Positions 2,074 to 20,717 of a DNA stretch of 20,717 nucleotides are shown piece after piece. Numbering within the stretch: the first letter of the stretch is position 1; the number at the start of each line of letters is the position of its first letter. The DNA is from a virus: positions 1 through 20,717 of the IMG/VR virus record IMGVR_UViG_3300022927_000152; one strand, written 5' to 3'. Below the pieces are notes generated by a model. That model had not been told where the DNA came from and made no database searches. It worked only from the letters and a program-made list of their open reading frames with translations. A program made the translations under genes and the position numbers.

Positions 2074-4065
2074 ATGAGTAACATTAAAAAGTTAATGATG
2101 TCTGCAGCAGGTGGTGGTGGTACAAACGTAGAAGAATTATTCAGCAGCTATTTATATCACGGAACAGGCTCCTCATTAACAATAACTAACAATATTGATT
2201 TGAGTACCGAAGGCGGTCTGGTTTGGCTGAAAGGTAGAGATTTTTCTGACAACCATGCACTTTACGACACGACTAGGGGTGTGAGAAATTACATTCACAG
2301 CAATACCACAGGTGGGCAAGCTACGGCAGGTGGTGGTCAGGGTTTAACCAATTTCACGACTAGCGGATTTACCGTTGGAAGCAATGTTACGTCAGAGAAT
2401 AATAGTGGCAAGGATCATGTGGCTTTCACATTTAGAAAAACCCCCAAGTTTTTTGACATTGTTACTTGGAACGGCGACAGCACTGGCGACAGAACGATTT
2501 CACATAACCTAGATCATACTGTCGGCATGATGCTCGTTAAGCAGACTAACGGTACGAATGATTGGAACGTGTATCACCGCAGAATGAACAATGGTACGAA
2601 TGATGCAAACTATGTTGCTATGCTTCATAGCACTACATCCGCTTTTACTAGCGACTATTGGACATATACACATCCTACAACGTCATCCTTCACTGTAAGA
2701 AGTAACCTAAATATCTCTGGTAGAACTTATATAGCCTACCTATTCGCCCACAACGATGGTGACGGTAATTTCGGCCCTACAGGGGATCAGGACATTATCA
2801 AGTGTGGGAGTTATTCAGGAACAGGAAGTGAAGCTGAAATTAATGTAGGTTTTGAGCCGCAATGGTTATTGTTTAAGAAAACTTCAGGTAATGGAAACTG
2901 GGTTATTTTTAACAGTATGAGCGGTTTCACCTCAAGGTTTGACAATCGTTTGTTCCCCAACACCACTTCTTTTGAAAATAGCACAGAAAATTGGCTAGAC
3001 CCAACGGCGACAGGGTTTAGAACAGAAATAAGTGATACATGGAACAGCGGTACATATATTTATGTTGCCATACGCCGTGGGACTGCCATACCAGAAAGTG
3101 CATCTGATGTATTTGATGTAAGTCAAAATTTATCTGCATCTGGTAGCACAAGATGGCAACCAAATAATATCTCAAACAATACCACAACTAACAGCAATGC
3201 TGGTTTTGGCTTTTCTCCTGATATGTGCATTATCAAGCCATCTGGAAGTTCAAAGGATCATTATGTAGCCACAAGAGCGCTTGGCAGTGGAACATTCGCA
3301 ACCAATAGCAATACAGCGTATAGTTACAATGATGCCGTGCATTTTAATGAGGCTCAAAATCATGTCCAAGTGGGGGCCGCAACAGATATTAATAGTCAAG
3401 TTGACTTAATTGGATACCAAGCATGGAAACGTGCGCCTCATTTTTTTGATGTCGTTCCTTACATCGGGAACGGAGCAAACCCCCATATTATATCTCATAG
3501 TCTTGGTGTTGCCCCTGAATTAATTTGGATTAAAAGTCGTGATAATGCACGGTCTTGGACATCTTCTTTACCCACGGGATCGGGTAATACCTCTACAACG
3601 CAACGACTACTATTAAATAGTACTACTGGTGCGGTAAGTCAAGCATATTTTCCATCGCAACCGACAGATACAACTTTTTCTATTATTGCCGATCCAGATA
3701 TAAATGCGAATAATGAAAATTATGTTGCATATCTTTTTGCCACACTTGCTGGTGTCTCTAAGGTGGGTATTTACACGGGTACTGGTTCTGACATCAATGT
3801 TGATTGCGGGTTTTCCAATGGCGCAAGCTGGGTAATGGTCAAGTGTTCTTCTCATGCGGGGTCGTGGCAAATGTATAATACAGCTTTTGGCAATGGCATT
3901 GCATCTGGAAATGATAGCTTTACTGAAATGGAAAGTGCTGGTGGAATAAGTAGCTCACAAGATAGAATAGATCCATATTCTGCGGGATTTAGCGTGCCAG
4001 CAGGTGCTGGTGGTGATATGAACCTAAGCGGCAGAACTTATATTTTCTATGCAATCGCAGCATAA
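2074..4065 (+). CDS. Repeat-built tail fibre / adhesin-like virion protein
   Basis: This 663-residue protein starts MSNIKKLMMSAAGGGG, a leader I know from marine phage tail proteins. The rest is made of about six related units of roughly 100 residues (26-122, 126-225, 241-335, a degenerate one at 346-452, 457-556, 563-661). Clear units begin with [YVG]-x-[GW]-x-G-[ST/N]-like strands, continue to a 'W[LIV]-x-[VI]K' strand, then a W-x-x-[YF] strand, and close with 'GRTYI-AYLFA'-like strands. From memory this resembles the repeated domain labelled DUF7483 in phages; I cannot confirm it here. Its location after the fibre gene suggests a receptor-binding or fibre-tip role. Serine AGC and codons such as GCG, GGG and CCC are visibly more common than in flanking genes, hinting at separate ancestry. 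Confidence 0.6.
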   Translation: MSNIKKLMMSAAGGGGTNVEELFSSYLYHGTGSSLTITNNIDLSTEGGLVWLKGRDFSDNHALYDTTRGVRNYIHSNTTGGQATAGGGQGLTNFTTSGFTVGSNVTSENNSGKDHVAFTFRKTPKFFDIVTWNGDSTGDRTISHNLDHTVGMMLVKQTNGTNDWNVYHRRMNNGTNDANYVAMLHSTTSAFTSDYWTYTHPTTSSFTVRSNLNISGRTYIAYLFAHNDGDGNFGPTGDQDIIKCGSYSGTGSEAEINVGFEPQWLLFKKTSGNGNWVIFNSMSGFTSRFDNRLFPNTTSFENSTENWLDPTATGFRTEISDTWNSGTYIYVAIRRGTAIPESASDVFDVSQNLSASGSTRWQPNNISNNTTTNSNAGFGFSPDMCIIKPSGSSKDHYVATRALGSGTFATNSNTAYSYNDAVHFNEAQNHVQVGAATDINSQVDLIGYQAWKRAPHFFDVVPYIGNGANPHIISHSLGVAPELIWIKSRDNARSWTSSLPTGSGNTSTTQRLLLNSTTGAVSQAYFPSQPTDTTFSIIADPDINANNENYVAYLFATLAGVSKVGIYTGTGSDINVDCGFSNGASWVMVKCSSHAGSWQMYNTAFGNGIASGNDSFTEMESAGGISSSQDRIDPYSAGFSVPAGAGGDMNLSGRTYIFYAIAA

Positions 4066-4871: not shown

Positions 4872-7589
4872 ATGATTAATCAAATTAAAAATCCTACATT
4901 CGGTGGTTTTAAACCAAATGCCATGCAACGAATTGCAGGTACACTGGGTTATACTGGTGACATGTCTGGCTTTCAAGAATACCTTAATCAAAATCCTGAC
5001 AAACAAGCACAGATGGATCAGTTTAAACAAGCAGCTATGACTATGGCACGTGGTGGTGCAGTACAAAAGTTTCAGGTAGGCGGTTTTCCAACTATTAATC
5101 AACAACAAAAACCTGAAGATCAAGTGCAACAACCACAACCTCAGACTATGCAGCTTGGTCCAAATGTAACTACACCACAAGTGTCAACACAACAACCTCT
5201 GTACACTACACAAAAGACAGACACAGGTTTTCAGGTACTTGATCAAACAGGTAAAGCTGTAAAGACTAACCTTGACACAATGCAGCAAGCACAACAGTAT
5301 GCTCAACAGCAGGGTGTACAGATAGGTACTGGTCCTAGTGATGGTGGTCCTGCACCAGTTACTATGCCTGAACCATTAGGTGAAGATGTAATTAAAAAAT
5401 ACACTGCTAATGTACCTAGTCATTTTGGTCCTCAACTTAAAGATATGTTTAAGTCTGGTAAACTTCCTGCCGATCCTAATAAGTATACTATTTCAGGTGG
5501 ACCACGTAACTGGACTATTACGTATGCAGATGGAACAACTATTAAGAATACTGCAAAAAATCGTTCTAGTGTAGAAAACGATGCCGCTAACATTATTCCT
5601 ACTTACATTAATAACTTTAAGGGTAGTGAAGAATATACACAAAATAAAGCACAACAAGATGCTTACCGTAACTATTTATCTAGTAGTGTAACTGGTGGTG
5701 TAACTGGTGATATTCAAAACATTGAACAAGAGTATACCAATGCACAGTCAAACTACACACAACAAAACTTAGAACTACAACGTCTGCAACAACAAGCTGC
5801 AGCCAATCCTAATGATCCATACCTAAAAGAACTTGTAGAAGCTAAGGGCAAAGAAGTGTCAGACACATATTCACGTCTGCAACAGCTTCAGCCACTCTAT
5901 CAATCCACACAGAAAACAATTAAAGATGTAATGACTGAACGTGCAACTGATCCTACGTTGCCTGAAGGTGCTCGTGTTGATCCTACTATGATTAAACAAG
6001 AAGCAGGTCAGTTTATTCCTCAAGGTAGTGGTCAGGTGTCTGGTGAGTTTGGTGTAAGTGAAGTTGCACTAGCTAATACATATTTATCTGCAAATGTAGA
6101 TCAGCCTGATACAGCTAAGTATGAAGCAGACGTACAAGCAGATCAAGTGGCTGCACAGACACAGGCACTAAACGCAGCACAGACCAATGAAGACGATGCT
6201 CGTGCTAAAGTGTCTGCAGCTATGGCTACAGCAAGTATGGTAGGTGATCTGAATGCTGCACAAGGTACTGCAACTCTCATGGAGAATGAAGTACAACGTG
6301 AGATACAAGACGGCGAGATAGTATCTGGTGCTTCTGCAGATGCAACTAAAGCAGCTAAGTTTACTGAACAGATTGATGCAGCAACTGCTACACCTTCAGA
6401 GAAAGCCACAGTACAAGGTCAGCTTGTAGGCTTGATGGAACAGTTTGAGGGTACTGCACCACCCCCGTGGGCTGCAGGGGCTGTACGTCTAGCTAACCAA
6501 CAGATGGCTGCTCGTGGTCTTAGTGCTTCGTCAATGGCAGGACAAGCCATTATGCAAGCAGCTATGGAAAGTGCACTACCAATTGCACAAGCTGATGCAG
6601 CTACACAAGCACAATTTGAAGCACAGAACTTGTCAAATCGTCAAGCACGTGCTATGCTTGCGGCAGAACAACGTGCTAAGTTCTTGGGTCAAGAGTTTGA
6701 TCAAGACTTCCAAACTCGTGTATTAAAAGCAAGTACAATTAGTGACATTGCTAATATGAACTTTACTGCTGACCAACAGATTCAGTTAGAGAATGCTCGT
6801 TCAGTACAAACAATGAACTTAGAGAACTTGTCTAACCGTCAAGCTATGGTTCTTGCAGAGGCATCTGCACTAGCTAACCTAGACATGGGTAACCTGAACA
6901 ACCGTCAACAGACTGCAGTACAGAATGCTCAAAACTTCTTACAGCTAGACATGGCTAACTTGTCCAACGAACAACAAACAGAACTGTTTAAGTCACAACA
7001 GGTTATTAACTCTATGTTGACTGACCAAGCTGCTGTAAATGCTTCACGTCAGTTTAATGCACAATCAGAGAACCAAGCTAATCAGTTCTACGACAACTTG
7101 AACTCAACCATTAACATGTTCAATTCAGAACAACAGAATGCACAAGAACGTTTTAATGCAGGTCAAGTTAATGCAGCTAACCAGTTTAATGCTGAGATGA
7201 AGAACCAACGTGAACAGTTCAATGCACAGAACCAGTTGGTAGTTGATCAGTCAAATGCTCAGTGGCGTAGAGAGATTGCTACAGCAGATACTGCTGCTAT
7301 TAACCGTGCAAACGAATTGAATGCTATCAATACACTGGACATCTCTAACACTGCTTACAATAACATGTGGCAGTTATACGGTGATCAGATGGAATGGGCA
7401 TGGACAAGTGCAGAGAACCAACAAGATCGCTTGAATGAACTTGCACAAGAACAATTGTCACTTGAAGAACGTAAAATGATGATTGATGCAAACTCTTCTG
7501 CTTCGTTTGGTAAGCTTGTAAGTAGCGTACTGTTTACTGATATGTCTACACTTGGCAAAACGTTTGGTGGAAGTCTTTTAGGATTTTAA
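4872..7589 (+). CDS. Large Gln/Asn-rich internal virion protein with hendecad repeats
   Basis: The 905-residue protein has three regions. Residues 1-72 resemble the N-terminus of marine podovirus internal proteins (NPTFGGFKPNAMQRIAGTLG, then ARGGAVQKFQVGGF at 59-72). Residues 73-560 are Gln-rich with predicted helical segments, including a conserved-looking stretch around 547-575 (AARGLSASSMAGQAIMQAAM). Residues 586-827 form a strict 11/22-residue repeat: NL[SN]N[RE]Q at 586, 652, 674 and 696, and Phe exactly every 11 residues at 728, 739, 750, 761, 772 and 783. Such a period favours long straight helices, as expected of a periplasm-spanning ejection conduit like T7 gp14-16. That role is inference from size, position and helicity. 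It is followed 12 bases later by a 71-residue gene with a good AGGA site. Confidence 0.65.
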   Translation: MINQIKNPTFGGFKPNAMQRIAGTLGYTGDMSGFQEYLNQNPDKQAQMDQFKQAAMTMARGGAVQKFQVGGFPTINQQQKPEDQVQQPQPQTMQLGPNVTTPQVSTQQPLYTTQKTDTGFQVLDQTGKAVKTNLDTMQQAQQYAQQQGVQIGTGPSDGGPAPVTMPEPLGEDVIKKYTANVPSHFGPQLKDMFKSGKLPADPNKYTISGGPRNWTITYADGTTIKNTAKNRSSVENDAANIIPTYINNFKGSEEYTQNKAQQDAYRNYLSSSVTGGVTGDIQNIEQEYTNAQSNYTQQNLELQRLQQQAAANPNDPYLKELVEAKGKEVSDTYSRLQQLQPLYQSTQKTIKDVMTERATDPTLPEGARVDPTMIKQEAGQFIPQGSGQVSGEFGVSEVALANTYLSANVDQPDTAKYEADVQADQVAAQTQALNAAQTNEDDARAKVSAAMATASMVGDLNAAQGTATLMENEVQREIQDGEIVSGASADATKAAKFTEQIDAATATPSEKATVQGQLVGLMEQFEGTAPPPWAAGAVRLANQQMAARGLSASSMAGQAIMQAAMESALPIAQADAATQAQFEAQNLSNRQARAMLAAEQRAKFLGQEFDQDFQTRVLKASTISDIANMNFTADQQIQLENARSVQTMNLENLSNRQAMVLAEASALANLDMGNLNNRQQTAVQNAQNFLQLDMANLSNEQQTELFKSQQVINSMLTDQAAVNASRQFNAQSENQANQFYDNLNSTINMFNSEQQNAQERFNAGQVNAANQFNAEMKNQREQFNAQNQLVVDQSNAQWRREIATADTAAINRANELNAINTLDISNTAYNNMWQLYGDQMEWAWTSAENQQDRLNELAQEQLSLEERKMMIDANSSASFGKLVSSVLFTDMSTLGKTFGGSLLGF

Positions 7590-7601: not shown

Positions 7602-7817
7602 ATGAATTTATATACTGCTGCAGCAAAAGGTTATGCAAAGGCTGTACGTGATTTAAGTAAACGTAGCAAGCCAACAATGGAACCACAGAAAACTGGTGGT
7701 TTACTTGCACGTGATATGACACGTAAGCCTAAGCAAGATGCCCCTAAAGATAAACAACCATATGACATGGTGCTTGATGCAATGCAACAAATTCGTGAGT
7801 ATAGGAATAAATTATAA
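7602..7817 (+). CDS. Small basic protein with GLLAR motif in the internal virion block
   Basis: This 71-residue, Lys/Arg-rich protein has an N-terminal helix (about 3-20, YTAAAKGYAKAVRDLSK), a linker with TGGLLARDM at 31-39, and a C-terminal helix (about 54-71). I do not recognise a family. The GLLAR motif echoes the C-terminal ends of the 176- and 1269-residue neighbours, suggesting a shared partner in the virion. An AAAGGA ribosome site lies 8 bases before the ATG. Its TAA shares one base with the next ATG (TAATG at 7815-7819), so the two genes are probably co-translated. Its length and clean coupling argue for a real gene. Confidence 0.6.
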   Translation: MNLYTAAAKGYAKAVRDLSKRSKPTMEPQKTGGLLARDMTRKPKQDAPKDKQPYDMVLDAMQQIREYRNKL

Positions 7818-8347
7818 TGGCACAGAATTATCGTAAGAGTTTTAATGCTCCTATCCCTGGACAAAGCTTAACTGCTGAACTGGGTGCACGTCCTTGGCAA
7901 CACCCACCCCAGTACAATACAGTGGAAGAAGCTATGGACTTTTATGCTCCACGTATTCTTGAGCCACAGTTTCGTGATCAGATGGTAGAGGTAATGGAAC
8001 TTGGTATTCCCCTTACCACAATCGCAAACTCTTTACAGTCTGGTGGTGTCATGCAAGGTAAGCACAGTATTGATGTGGGTATCCTTATCATGCCAGTGCT
8101 GATTGAAATGTTATCTTACGTTGGTGATGAAGAAGGTGTTGACTATGTGATTGGTACAGAGATGGAAGAACCTGAGCAAGGTAAATTCCGTGACTCAACA
8201 ATTGCTAAAGCAATGCGTGATGTAAAGAAACGTATGGAAGAAACTGGTGGTATTGCTGAAGAGCAAACACCAGAAGAACCAACTGAAGAACCTATGATGG
8301 AAACAGAAGAGCCTGAAGCTACAGGTCTAATGGCACGGAGGCAGTAA
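7817..8347 (+). CDS. Internal virion block protein, unknown function
   Basis: The 176-residue product has an N-terminal part with SLTAELGARPWQHPPQYNTVEEAMDFY phrasing (about 18-44), a helical middle (about 45-110, with PLTTIANSLQSGGVMQGKHS), and an acidic, Glu/Pro-rich tail (about 145-170) ending GLMARRQ. Proteins with this layout occur beside the ejection-protein genes in pelagiphage-type podoviruses, but none has a function I can name. A structural or assembly (scaffold-like) role is suggested by position and by the acidic disordered tail. It is coupled on both sides by one-base TAATG overlaps (7817 and 8347). The C-terminal GLMAR motif parallels GLLAR in the 71-residue protein and GLMSR at the end of the 1269-residue protein. 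Confidence 0.6.
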   Translation: MAQNYRKSFNAPIPGQSLTAELGARPWQHPPQYNTVEEAMDFYAPRILEPQFRDQMVEVMELGIPLTTIANSLQSGGVMQGKHSIDVGILIMPVLIEMLSYVGDEEGVDYVIGTEMEEPEQGKFRDSTIAKAMRDVKKRMEETGGIAEEQTPEEPTEEPMMETEEPEATGLMARRQ

Positions 8348-9441
8348 TGGCATTTAACTTTGGAGCATTTATCGGTGGCGCATCTGATAACTTGGTTGAA
8401 ATGATCAAGACTAAAGAAGCACAGTTGTATAAAGAAGAACAAGATGAAAAAGAACGTGTCCGTAAAGCTCGTGTAGCTGCAGCCAATCAACGTAGGGCAG
8501 ATGAAAATGCTGCTAAAGAACGAATAGGTGCATTAACTTTTCAAGGATACACACCAGAAAGTGCTGCTCAAATTGTACAGATGGGTGAGGGTGCATATAA
8601 CCAAGCTCTGTCTGTAGGTGAGCAAGCCTTTGTAAAAGGTGTTAATGTAAACAGTTTGTTTACACAAACTGGATCACTAGAAAAAACAGGTGAGACACTA
8701 AACACTGCCACAGATAAACCCGTTGGTCCAATAGGCATTCAATGGGATAATGCCGCAATTAAAACATTGTACGGTGAATCCACTATGCCTGACATTGACA
8801 CTATGCTTAACGCCAATGCTGTAAGTCAGATGAAATTGTTGTCTGTAGGTACACTTACTGAGGAACAACAGAAAGAGTTAGACGCTTTACAAAAACAAGA
8901 AACTGAATTGCTTACTAAGATTAACAAAAGAGCAGTTGCAGAAAAGGTTGAAAGTAGCGGCAATGGTTTTCAGGGCATAACAAAAGTGTCTGATGCAACT
9001 GCGTTTGAAAACTCTCTTGTAAAAACTAAAGGTCAAGCTCTACAGCTTAAAGGTTTTAAGGTAGACTTTAATGAAGAACTTATACAACAGTTTGAAGGTA
9101 GAGTAGGTGAAGGTTTAGCTGCACTTTATCAGGGTGTTATGAATGCTTCTAGTAGTTGGCAATTTGCACAGGATATTGGTGATCCTTATATTACTAACCG
9201 AATAACTTCTGAAAAAGCTATGGTAGAAAATGAATTACGTAATTATGCTACAAGAAGTGCGGCAGAAACTACACCACTAGAAATTCCTAATGCCGCAAGT
9301 GCGGGTGCTTTTGATAATGTTAAAACAGGTACAGTATTTACCACATACCAAACTGATGAAGCTACGGGTGTGTCTATCCCTATCCTTGGCGTATATATAA
9401 ACGTACCAGAAATGCCAATATTTGTTGCTAAAGTAGGTTAA
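8347..9441 (+). CDS. Internal virion protein (ejection protein candidate)
   Basis: The 364-residue protein begins MAFNFGAFIGGASDNLVEMI, a Gly-containing amphipathic leader that I associate with internal virion proteins of marine T7-like phages. Residues 20-62 form a charged coiled-coil-like helix rich in Lys/Glu/Arg (QLYKEEQDEKERVRKAR), and residues 64-105 hold a short repeat-rich helical segment. The C-terminal third (about 320-364) is beta-like (GTVFTTYQTDEATG, ILGVYINVP). I see no lytic transglycosylase Glu motif. The leader, the charged helix and the position before a 1269-residue partner suggest a T7 gp15-like component that enters the cell envelope at infection. The start overlaps the previous stop by one base. 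Confidence 0.58.
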   Translation: MAFNFGAFIGGASDNLVEMIKTKEAQLYKEEQDEKERVRKARVAAANQRRADENAAKERIGALTFQGYTPESAAQIVQMGEGAYNQALSVGEQAFVKGVNVNSLFTQTGSLEKTGETLNTATDKPVGPIGIQWDNAAIKTLYGESTMPDIDTMLNANAVSQMKLLSVGTLTEEQQKELDALQKQETELLTKINKRAVAEKVESSGNGFQGITKVSDATAFENSLVKTKGQALQLKGFKVDFNEELIQQFEGRVGEGLAALYQGVMNASSSWQFAQDIGDPYITNRITSEKAMVENELRNYATRSAAETTPLEIPNAASAGAFDNVKTGTVFTTYQTDEATGVSIPILGVYINVPEMPIFVAKVG

Positions 9442-9446
9442 AATTT

Positions 9447-12400
9447 ATGGCCACTATTGAAGAACTGTTAAGTAAAGCTGTAAAAGGCTATCAGACAGGC
9501 GAAGAAGAGGATGAACCACAACAAGTTCAACCTCAACAACCTGTTATGTCACCAGAACAGTCACAAAAGCAAAGCAGTTCTATAAGTGACATGCTAAAAA
9601 ATGCAGTAAAAGACTACGATCCTGCAGAGAATGCAAGTAATAAAGTAGTAGAGGACGAAAATAAAGTAGTTGACACGTCAGGTGAGCCTTTAGTTGTGGC
9701 ACCTGAAGATAATCCCGTATATGCAGAGTACTATAATAAACGTATGTTACCCGTTAGTGATACATATAACGGTGTGGCAGTAAAACCATTCGTACAAAGT
9801 GTAGAAGAGCAGACTGAAGAAAACTTTTCTCGTACTAAAACTACACTAAGAGATATAGATTCATCAAATAAACAGATGCAATCTGACATTAAAGAGCTTG
9901 GTTATATAGAACAAATACTTCAAGACAAAAAACTTCCTGTTGACTTTATGACTAGATCAAAGGAAGACCTAAGTAAGTTACGTGCCGATGAATTATTAGA
10001 ATACATAGATCAGAAGAATGCAATTCAGACTGAAGCTGAACGCATGTACTATGAAGAGTATGTCAAACCTGCCATTGAAGAAGGATTAAACCCCAAAAAA
10101 GCAGAAGATCAACTAATAAAAGACTACTTAGACCTTACAGGTTTTAAAGGCTTTAATATACTACAAGCTTTGGGAACAGGTGTACAGCTTACTACTGATG
10201 CATACACAGATACAATACAAGAAGCACTAGAGATAGCCGAACAAAAAGGCATAGGCTTTGAAACAGTCAAAAATGTCCTGTCGTTTGGTGGTAAGTTTGA
10301 CGTAGGTGACACGCCTGAAGAAATGGCAGAGGATGTTGCAGATAAAACTGGTGCATTCATGGAGTTCATGGAAACCAACGCATTTATCGGTGGTCTTACA
10401 AAAGTTAAACCTACGTGGGTAAAAGATTATCAAAGGGCTATTAAGCTAGACAAAGAACTTGAGGTTGCTAGACGTAATAACTATGGCGGTGCTATGCTTG
10501 CCACATTACAGTCTAAAGAAGATGCACGTATTGCTGCCGATGCAATGGCGGGTAAGAACAAAGAGTTAATGGATAAGCTTATCATTGAGCACGAGATAAA
10601 CACAGGTGCTCGTGATGCAAATGGCACTATCATTGACGAAAATAAACTTATATCCATACAAAAAGAAGATGGTTCACTAGAAGTAGACTATGACCTAGCA
10701 CGTAAAGCTAGTGAAAGTACTAGACGAGATTTGTTTGACGTTCAAGTAGACGATGATGGAAGGGAAATTGTCGTTGCAGATCAGATGGCAATGCTTGTTG
10801 GTGCTGAAGAGGGCTTGATCTCTCCTGTACTAAACCCTGATAAGGCAAAGGCACTTGTTGCGGTTGTTGCTGACTTCAAGGAAAGATACCCTAACAGTAC
10901 AGTATTTAAAAACAAAGACAAAGGTGTCATAGAAACACTACTAGACCTTACCCTACAGAAAGAACTTGTAGGTACAGAGGAACTGATTACTGTTCTAAAT
11001 AAATACGGTCTGTCATTTGAAGAATACGTGTCTGCAAGTATTGGTTCTTTCAGTGACGCAGGTAAGCTTCTTAACATAGCAAGTCAGATTAAACGTGTAC
11101 GTCCTATTGGTGAAGTAAATGATATACAAACACGTAAGCTTCAGGAAGTACAGGATCGCATGTCACAGGCAGGTCAACGCCTTGAGAATGTTCGTCGTGG
11201 TGCAATGGTTAGCCAGATTGCTACAGCCATGCGTAACTTTGAAAGTGCCGCACTGCGTCTTCCTATGGATTCGCTTGGCAACATGATAGATACAGTCCTA
11301 GTTGAGTTTGGTAAGCCTATAACAGGCGGTGTAATAGACGGTAAAGGTGGATTTGTAGGCGCAGCTAAAGCTGTAGTAAACAAAGACCTGTGGAAAGATG
11401 CGTTCTCTTCACACAAATATGTGTTCTCTCGCCCTGATGTAGCCAAAGGTTTCTCTGATCTTATACTAGACAACCCTCAGTTTCAAACACAATCAAAACG
11501 TATGTATGATAACCTGAACGAAATCAGGAAGGCTACTGGACGTGGCGAAGGTGGATTAAACGATAAACTTCTTAACCCACTAGAAGACGTTGTTGAAATG
11601 ATGAACACTACTAACCAATGGCAAGAACACTTGGTTCGTCGTGGTGCATTTCTTGGTGAGCTACGTAGGCTTACTAAAAACGAATATGGTATTGACCTGA
11701 TTGATACTATGATTGAAGGTAAACTGCCTGACCTACTTAACGATGCAAGCACAGTACGCCCTGATAAGGCACGTTCTTTTGTTGCACTAGTCAATGACGC
11801 TGTTGAGTCTGCTTTGTCTGTTACCTACGCAAAACAACCTGACAATAAATTCTTCCAAGACTTAACTAACATGATCACTGGACGTAGAGTCTTTGGTATA
11901 CCACTAACTACCGTGGTAGAGTTCCCTAGATTTATGTTCAACAGTATGGAAATCATGGCGCAGTATGCTGCAGGTGGTGCTATCCCCCTGACTAAAAAGG
12001 TCATGGACATAGTTAATCCAAGTAAGAAAGAATTAACCAAGATGTCTCCAAAAGATAGGCTTGGTATTCAACGTAACTTGGTTGGACTTGCTGCTATCGG
12101 TGCTGCCTATCAGTACAGAACCAGTGAAAATGCACCTGAAGATTATAAGATGTTTGGTGCAGGTGAAAATGCAGTAGACACATCTCCTATGTTTCCAATG
12201 CGACAAATCTTGTACATTGGTGAATCTCTAAAGCACCTTAAAGAAGGTACATTTGGATCGCTGTGGTGGGATGGTAAAGAGTTTGCAGAAACTTTCATAG
12301 GTACTACGTTCAGAACGGGTACAGGTAATCTTATTATTGAAGAGATTGCGTCACTAGCAGATGGCATGGACATTTCTGGTAGTCAGGCTGCTGCAGAGGC

Positions 12401-13256
12401 GGCGGGTAAAGCTGTAGGTAATTACTTTACATCTTATCTAACAGGCTTTGGACAGTTCATTGATGCACAAAGAATGTATGGTCCTGTAGATGTGGATGTA
12501 GGTGGACAAGAGCTAACATTTGGACGTGAGAATACGTACAAGCAAGACCTAAAACCTGCACCTAAAGATGCAGTTGATGCTGTTAAACGTGGTTTGATGG
12601 ATAGTTACAACAGACGTTTCCGTGATGCTGAAGCTGAAAGAAAGATGGATGAAAAGGTAACTGTGTTCCCAGAGGACGTAGAACGTCCAGATGCTGCATG
12701 GAAGGTTACATTAGGTATCAACCTAAGTCCACGTGACTCCGACACTGGTGAGTACTTCATAGCGCACGGTACACCTAAGTGGAAGGTAGGTAGTAACTCT
12801 GACATTGATGCAGTTGCTGCACGTGAGAATGAAGAGATTGCTAAGTTCGTGCCTATGTTACACGATGCTATGCTTGCACTAGAGGATAGAGTGTTCAGAA
12901 AGAACTATGAAGCACTAAGACCTGAAGTAAAAGAAAAGTATAGTGAAGATGCATATGTCAAGCTTCAGATAAAACCAATCTTAGAACGCAAGCTTAGTGA
13001 GTTTAAGTCTGGACTAAGAGAAAAAGGTACAGAGGCTCTTGCCGATCCATTCTCTAGGGCGTTGTCAGAGTATAACAGCATACCAAAAGACTACAGACGT
13101 ATAGCTGTAATAGAATATATGAATGATCCTAAGAATGAAAATGCAGATGATCCAGATTTAACAAGCCCAGAAGTATTGAGGGAACTTATTAAACGGTCAA
13201 AGACAATACAGAAAACATATACCAGTAGTGGTAGAAGTGGATTGATGTCAAGATAG
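9447..13256 (+). CDS. Very large internal virion / ejection protein
   Basis: At 1269 residues this is the largest gene and the last of the virion arm, where T7 gp16-like ejection proteins lie. Residues 1-60 are disordered and hold two copies of I-x-x-[LM]-L-x-x-A-V-K-x-Y (4-15 and 46-57). The middle is helical and charged. Residues about 587-625 contain a conserved-looking phrase (SQIATAMRNFESAALRLPMD) that I know from giant internal proteins of marine podo- and cyanophages. Weakly hydrophobic stretches lie near 871-890 and 983-1005 and could contact membranes. The protein ends SGRSGLMSR. No peptidoglycan hydrolase or protease motif is evident. The role in DNA ejection is inferred from size, position and these phrases. 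Its stop lies 9 bases before the terminator hairpin. Confidence 0.62.
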   Translation: MATIEELLSKAVKGYQTGEEEDEPQQVQPQQPVMSPEQSQKQSSSISDMLKNAVKDYDPAENASNKVVEDENKVVDTSGEPLVVAPEDNPVYAEYYNKRMLPVSDTYNGVAVKPFVQSVEEQTEENFSRTKTTLRDIDSSNKQMQSDIKELGYIEQILQDKKLPVDFMTRSKEDLSKLRADELLEYIDQKNAIQTEAERMYYEEYVKPAIEEGLNPKKAEDQLIKDYLDLTGFKGFNILQALGTGVQLTTDAYTDTIQEALEIAEQKGIGFETVKNVLSFGGKFDVGDTPEEMAEDVADKTGAFMEFMETNAFIGGLTKVKPTWVKDYQRAIKLDKELEVARRNNYGGAMLATLQSKEDARIAADAMAGKNKELMDKLIIEHEINTGARDANGTIIDENKLISIQKEDGSLEVDYDLARKASESTRRDLFDVQVDDDGREIVVADQMAMLVGAEEGLISPVLNPDKAKALVAVVADFKERYPNSTVFKNKDKGVIETLLDLTLQKELVGTEELITVLNKYGLSFEEYVSASIGSFSDAGKLLNIASQIKRVRPIGEVNDIQTRKLQEVQDRMSQAGQRLENVRRGAMVSQIATAMRNFESAALRLPMDSLGNMIDTVLVEFGKPITGGVIDGKGGFVGAAKAVVNKDLWKDAFSSHKYVFSRPDVAKGFSDLILDNPQFQTQSKRMYDNLNEIRKATGRGEGGLNDKLLNPLEDVVEMMNTTNQWQEHLVRRGAFLGELRRLTKNEYGIDLIDTMIEGKLPDLLNDASTVRPDKARSFVALVNDAVESALSVTYAKQPDNKFFQDLTNMITGRRVFGIPLTTVVEFPRFMFNSMEIMAQYAAGGAIPLTKKVMDIVNPSKKELTKMSPKDRLGIQRNLVGLAAIGAAYQYRTSENAPEDYKMFGAGENAVDTSPMFPMRQILYIGESLKHLKEGTFGSLWWDGKEFAETFIGTTFRTGTGNLIIEEIASLADGMDISGSQAAAEAAGKAVGNYFTSYLTGFGQFIDAQRMYGPVDVDVGGQELTFGRENTYKQDLKPAPKDAVDAVKRGLMDSYNRRFRDAEAERKMDEKVTVFPEDVERPDAAWKVTLGINLSPRDSDTGEYFIAHGTPKWKVGSNSDIDAVAARENEEIAKFVPMLHDAMLALEDRVFRKNYEALRPEVKEKYSEDAYVKLQIKPILERKLSEFKSGLREKGTEALADPFSRALSEYNSIPKDYRRIAVIEYMNDPKNENADDPDLTSPEVLRELIKRSKTIQKTYTSSGRSGLMSR

Positions 13257-19397: not shown

Positions 19398-19426
19398 GTT
19401 ATATCACGACACATCTTTTGTGTCAA
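19398..19426 (-). promoter_or_regulatory. Near-consensus sigma70 promoter for the SSB operon
   Basis: On the leftward strand TTGACA (19421-19426) is separated by exactly 17 bases from TATAAC (19398-19403), and TGA directly precedes the -10, making it an extended -10 promoter. The -35 is a perfect consensus and the -10 matches 5 of 6. The -35 lies inside the last codons of the polymerase gene and the -10 immediately follows its stop (19404-19406). Transcription would start near 19391, about 25 bases before the SSB start codon. It implies that host RNA polymerase reads this operon. Confidence 0.72.
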
Positions 19427-20717
19427 GCCAATTTGGACCGATCTTTGCCTCTAATAAAAGTGGTACATTGAAATCCAGTTTCCACTTCTTATTAACGATG
19501 GCAAGCAGTCGGTCATTGGCTGCATGAATAATCCGTAATACTTTGTCCTTCTCGTTGGGATGCACATCAATCACGATGGAGTCGTGTACGGTATTGACGA
19601 TGCATGATTGCATTTGGTTAGCCCCTAATAACTTGTCAATGTATATCAGGGATATAGGTACAATGTCAGCAGTGGCAAACGATTGTACAGGAAAGTTTTT
19701 AATCTGTGTGAAAAATGTCACAGTACCATTTGCACGGCGAGTAACATCAGGGAAAGAGAACTCACGACCAGATGGTGTTTTGATCTTACCCGTAGCTAGT
19801 GCCTCACGTGCTAGGTCTTTGTGCCACTTGCCAATGCCAGAGTATTTCTTAGTAAACTGCTCGTAGTACGCAGCCTCTGCAGGTGTACGACCAAATCCAC
19901 TGGCACCATATAACGGAGCAAATGTATGTGCCTTGGCCTCTTGGCGTGACATGTTCTGTCCTGCATCAGTAATGACCTGTGCAGTGTATGAGTGTACATC
20001 AAAGCCTGTGGTCACCTCATCAATGGCGGTCTTGTCCTGTGATAGGAACGCAGCCACACGAAACTCTAACTGTGCAAAGTCGGCTTCCATGATCTCACCG
20101 CCATCCCAACGTGACTTGAACACACGTTTCACAGGGAACGTACCACCACGTGGCATGTTCTGCATGTTAGGATCGGCACCAGACAAACGTCCAGTAGCGG
20201 TGCGGTGTTGAAGTAACCTGACGTGCAGCTTACCATCTTGCTTTACATGTGTTGAGATACCTTCCACAAAGCTTGAGAGATATGTGTCAACGGCAGACAA
20301 ACGGCGTACTCGTTGTAAGAACAACACTGCGTCTTGCATATTACGTTCTCTAGCGACACCTTCAAGGTATTCAAGCTTATCTTTACTTGTTGCGAAACCG
20401 TTGGCTGAAGCCCATTTTGAAGTTGGAGCATTGAACTTTAACCCCGCAACTGTGCTACGTATATCCATGAAAATATATCCTGTAGCATTACATGTTGTAC
20501 ATTTGTTTGGTCTTGCATATCGTGTACCATCCTTTCTTGTTTTGTATGTGTGTCCTGTGCCATTGCAAGTACTGCACTGTTTAGCCTTTTGTTTGTACAA
20601 CATCACACTGTTCTGACGTACCGTGCTACGATACTCTGTGTCAGACATACGAAAGTCATCAAACAAATCTGCCCACACTTTCTTGTCCTTGGGTTTCTTG
20701 CTGTAGATAACCCATGA
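19404..20717 (-). CDS. polA: DNA polymerase A with DnaJ-type zinc finger (5' truncated)
   Basis: The frame is open through the window edge (SWVIYSKKPKDKK precedes the GTG at 20678), so the N-terminal exonuclease part lies outside. Counting from that codon: two CxxCxGxG-type motifs, CSTCNGTG (35-42) and CTTCNATG (60-67), form a DnaJ-like zinc finger. The polymerase domain follows with motif A EADFAQLEFRVAAFLS (D200), motif B RQEAKAHTFAPLYGASGFG (R245, K249, F253, Y257) and motif C VHDSIVID (H365, D366). This finger-plus-PolA layout is known from HMO-2011-type phages. F253 matches E. coli Pol I F762. Motif C has HDS where the usual family form is HDE. It replicates the phage genome and heads the leftward arm visible here. 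Confidence 0.95.
   Translation of the reverse strand, partial: SWVIYSKKPKDKKVWADLFDDFRMSDTEYRSTVRQNSVMLYKQKAKQCSTCNGTGHTYKTRKDGTRYARPNKCTTCNATGYIFMDIRSTVAGLKFNAPTSKWASANGFATSKDKLEYLEGVARERNMQDAVLFLQRVRRLSAVDTYLSSFVEGISTHVKQDGKLHVRLLQHRTATGRLSGADPNMQNMPRGGTFPVKRVFKSRWDGGEIMEADFAQLEFRVAAFLSQDKTAIDEVTTGFDVHSYTAQVITDAGQNMSRQEAKAHTFAPLYGASGFGRTPAEAAYYEQFTKKYSGIGKWHKDLAREALATGKIKTPSGREFSFPDVTRRANGTVTFFTQIKNFPVQSFATADIVPISLIYIDKLLGANQMQSCIVNTVHDSIVIDVHPNEKDKVLRIIHAANDRLLAIVNKKWKLDFNVPLLLEAKIGPNWLDTKDVS
19408..19424. repeat. Inverted repeat in the promoter spacer (operator-like dyad)
   Basis: GACACA and TGTGTC form a perfect 6-bp dyad around a 5-base centre. It overlaps the -35 and fills most of the spacer of the SSB promoter, the position of a repressor operator. 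It is also the coding sequence for the polymerase C-terminus (DTKDV), and there is no T-run, so it is not an intrinsic terminator. Confidence 0.55.

Follow-up and report, generated by a model that had tools for sequence, protein, structure and literature searches.

The 905-residue protein described here, encoded at positions 4872..7589 on the plus strand of the window (the whole analysed stretch of 20,717 nucleotides), carries what is almost certainly a helical rod of quantised length, in which relatives differ by whole units of 11 residues (hendecads). The window comes from a relative of Puniceispirillum phage HMO-2011, and the protein was assigned to the family of HMO-2011 gp25 (ADW08438) on the basis of its ORF, tblastn (56% identity over 70% of the query) and synteny. 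The distance between the two conserved segments flanking the repeat was 10 modulo 11 in 269 of 270 ORFs. A testable rule follows: rod length has changed at least 27 times, with whole hendecads gained and lost and part-hendecad changes almost never seen. The best single reading of the rod, with a probability somewhat short of even, is a multi-helix tube that carries DNA.

The repeat in the window protein

The rod gene begins with an N-terminal region of highly variable length among homologues (residues 1-498; 4872..6365). It is followed by a conserved N anchor domain (residues 499-576; 6366..6599; PPPWAAGA...RGLSASSMAGQA...LPIAQADA), which AlphaFold2 modelled with a pLDDT of about 75-87 in its best part. 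The hendecad rod itself comprises residues 577-795 (6600..7256), the anchor distance of 219 being 20 x 11 - 1, and includes a stretch in which Phe occurs at every eleventh residue (residues 728-783; 7053..7220). A conserved C anchor domain completes the arrangement (residues 782-858; 7215..7445; SNAQWRREIATADTAAINRANELNA...W), all of these features lying on the plus strand.

The preliminary description had singled out positions 6627-7352, exactly residues 586-827 of the protein, as a strict 11/22-residue repeat. Its motif NL[SN]N[RE]Q is correctly placed at 586, 652, 674 and 696, as are the Phe residues at 728, 739, 750, 761, 772 and 783, and Asn does occupy 14 of the 22 phase-zero positions between 586 and 817. 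When all periods from 5 to 30 were scanned in all phases over residues 586-827, the best Asn signal was found at period 11, phase 0 (z 6.1), and was reached by none of 1000 shuffles. Phe also gave its best signal at period 11 (z 5.8), which 25 of the 1000 shuffles reached, so that Phe alone is the weaker marker. No comparable Asn period was present in residues 1-575 (best z 3.6, period 27). The best self-match offsets in homologues are nearly all multiples of 11, and since changes in length by single 11s occur, the unit is 11; the 22-residue spacing is retained as a sub-pattern only. A solenoid of 22-residue hairpins was considered and is ruled out by length classes one hendecad apart (142/153/164/175), by the absence of proline and by a glycine content of 1.3%.

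Variation of rod length in whole hendecads

Profiles (HMM) were made of the two conserved segments flanking the repeat, and the spacing between residues 576 and 795 of the window protein, or their equivalents, was measured in all ORFs of 292 loci and the window. The relatives had been collected as the best 80 of 517, 80 of 563 and 80 of 557. The N anchor was found in 277 ORFs, the C anchor in 282 and both in 270, the rest being cut by contig ends or having one anchor only. The spacings were 142, 153, 164, 175, 208, 219, 230, 263, 274, 307, 329, 340, 439, 549, 657 and 659, thus 16 lengths from 142 to 659 residues or 13 to 60 hendecads, and 15 of these 16 classes are 10 modulo 11. The sole exception, L269 with a spacing of 657, lacks two residues, which were apparently deleted close to the Phe stretch. 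Loci in bacterial genomes with both anchors are also in register (219 in L298 and L299-L302; 230 in L303). Redundancy leaves 242 distinct repeat sequences, which form 175 clusters at 90% identity and 46 at 60%. The proposal that homologues vary in steps of 11 has accordingly held, and the register is real and far stronger than could be seen when it was first pointed out.

Distances outside the rod behave differently. Those from the start of the protein to the N anchor took 178 distinct values in 227 proteins, with every remainder modulo 11, and those from the C anchor to the end took 57 values, again with every remainder. A motif upstream of the N anchor stood at 7 distances with 6 different remainders.

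Rod lengths were placed on a tree built from the two anchor segments only (quick search, LG+G4; 161 rows out of 266 after removal of near-identical rows of the same length, 4 of the 270 having been left out as too near the ORF ends). At least 27 changes are required. In one most-parsimonious reconstruction 26 of 27 changes are multiples of 11 and 13 of 27 multiples of 110, counts that hold for that reconstruction, the ancestral states not being unique. A second length quantum of 110 residues, or ten hendecads, can also be observed in the classes 219, 329, 439, 549 and 659 and in 230 and 340 (L264 and L261, for example, belong to the 659 class). The long members contain a 110-residue super-repeat with a mean identity of 29-40% in the 439-659 classes. 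Block recombination, the sole explanation offered for this quantum, may account for it.

One may ask whether such lengths call for structural selection at all, or are the neutral product of recombination between 33-bp and 330-bp repeats. The share of 110-residue multiples among the inferred changes and the super-repeat of the long members are what unequal recombination between similar blocks gives. This explanation is nevertheless highly unlikely, as it leaves unexplained the complete lack of proline, the phase pattern conserved in far-diverged units and the fact that hardly any of the 27 changes breaks the register. If the rod instead consists of helices packed against each other, the gain or loss of part of a hendecad would rotate one end of every helix relative to its neighbours and would be selected against. 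With rods of 13 to 60 units, the family offers natural variants in which to study whether conduits or fibres of phages are made to a set length.

Helical character and probable packing seams

Proline is absent from all 57,972 repeat residues of 240 distinct domains, compared to 4.7% in the remainder of the proteins, and glycine amounts to 1.3% in the repeat domains and 8.2% outside them. An AlphaFold2 model of residues 462-905 built from 41 sequences was all-helical and of low confidence (pLDDT 60.6, pTM 0.29), with breaks in the rod, where the longest helices had 65 and 56 residues. Such a model is compatible with long helices and is no proof of one single helix. The long, nearly straight helices that were initially proposed are thereby favoured by the proline count and by the all-helical model, low in confidence as this is. 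A fold search with the rod model returned only chance matches to long helices (best E 2.6), as expected at this pLDDT.

With 43 clusters given equal weight, the phases of the hendecad are occupied by Asn (69%) at 0, Ala/Leu at 1, Gln/Ser at 2, Asn/Ala at 3, Glu/Arg/Lys at 4, Gln/Asn at 5, Gln at 6, Ala/Met/Val/Ile at 7, Ala/Asp/Glu at 8, Leu/Gln/Met at 9 and Phe/Ala at 10. At 3/11 turn per residue the hydrophobic positions fall into two groups, phases 9/1/5 and 10/3/7. Phases 2 and 6, which lie between these seams, are rich in Gln, Ser and Asn and only 2% and 0% hydrophobic, and the other side of the helix carries Asn together with charged residues. Asn had been thought to occupy the core phase. 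Phase 0, however, belongs to neither hydrophobic seam but falls in the gap separating the charged face from one of them, and is therefore not core. In a tube of such helices this Asn would lie on the outer edge of a seam and could bond the neighbouring helix.

The second harmonic of hydrophobicity exceeds the first in 42 of 43 clusters, hence the body of the rod is two-faced. Over the 88 residues that precede the C anchor (the Phe stretch), the harmonics class just 49 of 240 domains as two-faced, and most are single-faced. The segments upstream of these residues are two-faced in 162/240, 153/179, 135/172, 49/58 and 19/19 domains, and this segment-wise check shows the two-faced pattern to be in part an average over different segments. 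The angle between the seams of the body is 166 degrees, or 186 when the second seam is taken to include phases 0 and 4, and as it depends on this choice it fixes neither the curvature nor the side of the lumen. A pooled angle of 160 degrees was rejected as a measure of the number of helices in a ring because it mixes the Phe stretch with the body, and to read the pattern as a barrel would on the same ground go too far.

The rod helices are likely to pack through these two seams. Judged by residue pattern, an angle near 180 degrees would fit helices standing side by side in a wall. Two seams of this kind are better suited to packing in a wall or tube than to a coiled coil of two or three strands. 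Helices with an 11/3 repeat also exist as single amphipathic helices of the alpha-synuclein and apolipoprotein style, and the rod could in principle lie on membrane or DNA in this manner, its helices not packed together. The face opposite the charged one is amide-rich rather than hydrophobic, however, and the hydrophobic residues are divided between separate seams, making this the least probable of the alternatives considered here.

Gene neighbourhood

Upstream of the rod gene are tail-fibre genes, a tail-assembly chaperone and a DUF6127 gene. The window also encodes, at 2074-4065, a 663-residue protein with DUF7483 in two matched stretches and matches to tail-fibre and virion PHROGs. Four ORFs follow the rod gene on the same plus strand. 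The first (7602..7817; 71 residues) fills the interval between the rod gene and its partner, and a gene of 65-74 aa is found in the equivalent place in 5 other records examined. The second (7817..8347) is the conserved partner of 176 residues, p176, which follows the rod gene in 194 of the 195 loci whose sequence extends more than 3 kb downstream. AlphaFold2 predicts a helical fold for it (pLDDT 85.6); the p176 family model had no PDB match at E<=0.001 and a single viral match, A0A346HW51 (E 8.6e-9). The third (8347..9441; 364 residues) is placed like a T7 gp15/P22 gp20-type gene, and the fourth (9447..13256; 1269 residues) is placed and sized like a T7 gp16-type gene, judged by position and size only. 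In several relatives the rod gene is placed after lysis genes.

The window protein had no Pfam match at E<=0.1 and, together with a second query, no match to PDB sequences at E<=5. Its one weak PHROG match (phrog_6956, E 0.013) was not used as evidence. At the far end of the window, an ORF on the minus strand (19404-20717) has two CXXCXGXG-like zinc motifs followed by polymerase-like sequence, in agreement with the partial DnaJ domain described for the HMO-2011 DNA polymerase (PMC6918029).

Distribution and domain variants of the family

The rod family belongs to abundant ocean phages. With tblastn, family matches were found in 27 of 50,697 phage records, and the hosts of the matching phages include Puniceispirillum, roseobacters, Pelagibacter, Vibrio, Aeromonas, Pseudoalteromonas, Rhizobium and Sinorhizobium. 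The window protein carries the family signature, with the N anchor (LPIAQ.DA), hendecad rod and C anchor (SNA.WRR) in one ORF and p176 downstream. Both anchors, the rod and the partner genes of the window are common to HMO-2011, CRP-1/2/3, HTVC103P/104P/115P/033P, CHOED, phiM6, RHph_N3_19, Slicky01 and MQM1. Among the named phages fetched the rod has 13-28 hendecads (13 in phiM6 and 28 in HTVC104P), in the metagenomic phage record ctYwJ313 it has 30 and in other metagenomic contigs up to 60. The ctYwJ313 homologue (L042 7149-9740) is annotated 'huntingtin', probably on account of its Gln-rich repeat.

More distant relatives (L305-L310) share the N anchor domain without the C anchor, in most of them with a shorter N/Q-rich stretch next to it. 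They are found in genomes or MAGs labelled Hahella, Luteibacter, Burkholderiales, Planctomycetota, Zixibacteriota and Thermodesulfobacteriota. The Hahella relative, used as query, retrieved Vibrio phages that match only its C-terminal part. Identical phage contigs of equal lengths (MHASMcontig_807657 and 84293; L299-L302) were binned in both Flavobacteriales and Neomarinimicrobiota MAGs, so these bins are no guide to the host.

Family members differ at the N terminus and in the C-terminal tail. Domains were surveyed in 59 non-redundant homologues, obtained from 65 chosen among 146 complete ORFs. Peptidase_S74 ends 11 of the 59, the other 48 having no Pfam S74 match, and LysM, a peptidoglycan-binding domain, is present in 2. 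S74-ending homologues occur in the Roseobacter phages CRP-235 (L046 1630-4161), CRP-3 (L048 2185-4041) and CRP-212 (L054 2317-4098), that of CRP-235 having in addition a LysM domain at its start. The window protein lacks an extra C-terminal stretch (CWVAREVYG...) that ends both HMO-2011 gp25 (L001 12007-14127) and a contig protein (L027 3050-5887), and that is covered by no Pfam match at E<=0.5. PHROG 4287 ('DNA ejection protein') was matched by 9 of the 59 homologues and PHROG 6121 ('virion structural protein') by 11. In several members checked singly the PHROG 6121 match spans the N anchor, rod and S74 (L048 258-618), and in most members with coordinates checked the PHROG 4287 match rests on the S74 end.

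Proteins ending in S74 are homotrimers. Their presence in the family raises the alternative of an external trimeric fibre or needle, in which the rod would form the three-stranded hendecad coiled-coil stalk of a tail appendage, assembled by the C-terminal chaperone and with a length that tracks receptor reach. The rod gene does come after tail-fibre and fibre-assembly genes, lengths of up to 99 nm would be suitable, and the mostly one-faced last 88 residues agree with such a stalk. Against this, a trimer needs one face and the body has two in nearly all clusters, most homologues lack an S74 match, and the rod gene is grouped with p176 and large downstream genes, beyond the lysis genes in several relatives. 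Furthermore, Vibrio phage 1.275.O has an S74-ending protein at the P22 ejection-gene position, flanked by a head-closure protein and two coil-containing genes that precede the tailspike gene; S74 is therefore no proof of a fibre. A trimeric fibre is fairly unlikely on this balance.

Proposed role in DNA ejection

The DNA-carrying tube remains the preferred reading of the rod. In the window protein, 20 hendecads of three turns apiece would form a long, straight alpha-helical rod, whose length at 1.5 Å per residue comes to about 33 nm. Conserved domains flank it at both ends, and the protein as a whole would be a virion protein of HMO-2011-type short-tailed phages. Several copies would stand side by side, packed through the two seams. 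The most likely product would be a multi-helix tube that, together with p176 and the 364- and 1269-residue proteins, conducts DNA out of the short tail and across the cell envelope, with a lining of Gln, Ser and Asn as in the phiX174 H tube.

Three lines of evidence suggest a part in DNA ejection, none of them decisive: the gene order, in which the rod gene is followed by a conserved small partner, a mid-size protein and then a very large, T7-gp16-sized one; the matches to PHROG 4287 and 6121; and the LysM and S74 domains. The tube reading is weakened by the lack of homology to T7/P22 ejection proteins and of a PDB relative, and by the low-confidence, broken monomer model. It is weakened further since the PHROG 4287 matches mostly rest on S74, which in 11 of 59 homologues points to trimers, since the last 88 residues are mostly one-faced, and since 659 residues (99 nm) exceed any normal periplasm.

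One may speculate further, in what is a doubtful proposal, that short-tailed phages possess an adjustable DNA conduit, a tube of hendecad helices lined by Gln, Ser and Asn. Its length, about 21 nm at the shortest and 99 nm at the longest, would evolve in steps of one hendecad (1.6 nm) or ten (16 nm) and so match envelope thickness. Were this true, related phages could fit cell envelopes of different thickness without a redesigned assembly.

Comparison with known systems

A search of the open-licence literature on hendecads or 11-residue repeats in phages and on HMO-2011-type phage proteins found no description of this repeat, nor any virion proteomics of the group. Relatives such as the HMO-2011-type CRP phages are described as podoviruses (PMC6918029), and the gene neighbourhood and downstream gene sizes of the rod locus resemble those of T7 gp14/gp15/gp16 and P22 gp7/gp20/gp16. 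T7 gp15 with gp16 and DEV gp72 are described as channels of six and nine subunits, respectively (PMC8954989, PMC10925440). Comparison of the rod anchors and neighbour families with proteins of T7, P22 and Vibrio phage 1.275.O by hhalign gave nothing above 10% probability, at the limited sensitivity of single-sequence templates, and the 1269-residue ORF reached E 0.73 against T7 gp16. The rod protein is additional to the T7/P22 ejection sets, in which no equivalent of it was identified.

In phiX174 the H protein assembles ten helices into a DNA tube of 170 Å, in which hendecads lie at one end and Asn, Gln or Arg occupy 18 of the 23 inward positions described (PMC7354561). It resembles the rod in its partial hendecads, amide-rich face and long helices, and its role is to convey DNA through the cell wall. 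The body of the rod, unlike its last 88 residues, shares with H a pair of packing seams that enclose an amide-rich face. In contrast to the rod, H combines 3 hendecads with heptads, belongs to an ssDNA phage and has a known oligomer (10), the likeness being one of residue patterns only. Trimeric Peptidase_S74 fibres share their C-terminal domain with the 11 homologues mentioned above, whereas the window protein has no S74 match and a two-faced body.

The closest precedent for length change by whole 11-residue units is the tape-measure protein. Such proteins are described as carrying an 11-residue repeat, marked by Phe/Trp, in varying copy number, with a 44-residue length difference (PMC3271669; Belcaid et al. 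2011). The rod family shares the 11-residue repeat, the F/W marker and the variable copy number, and [FW]-[NT] recurs every 11 residues in both the window protein and the tape measure. These features would accord with a podoviral counterpart, a rod kept in few copies in or along the portal or tail and setting the length of another structure. This is improbable, as short-tailed phages have no long tail tube to measure, tape-measure proteins being those of long-tailed phages. The only tape-measure protein tested, from Staphylococcus phage 69, is moreover over its 15 hendecads a one-faced, hydrophobic Thr/Ile helix (first harmonic 0.48, second 0.11), in contrast to the two-faced, Asn/Gln-rich rod. 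Length units of 11 residues, familiar from tape-measure proteins, are thus now found in a family of short-tailed phages and in a helix with two faces.
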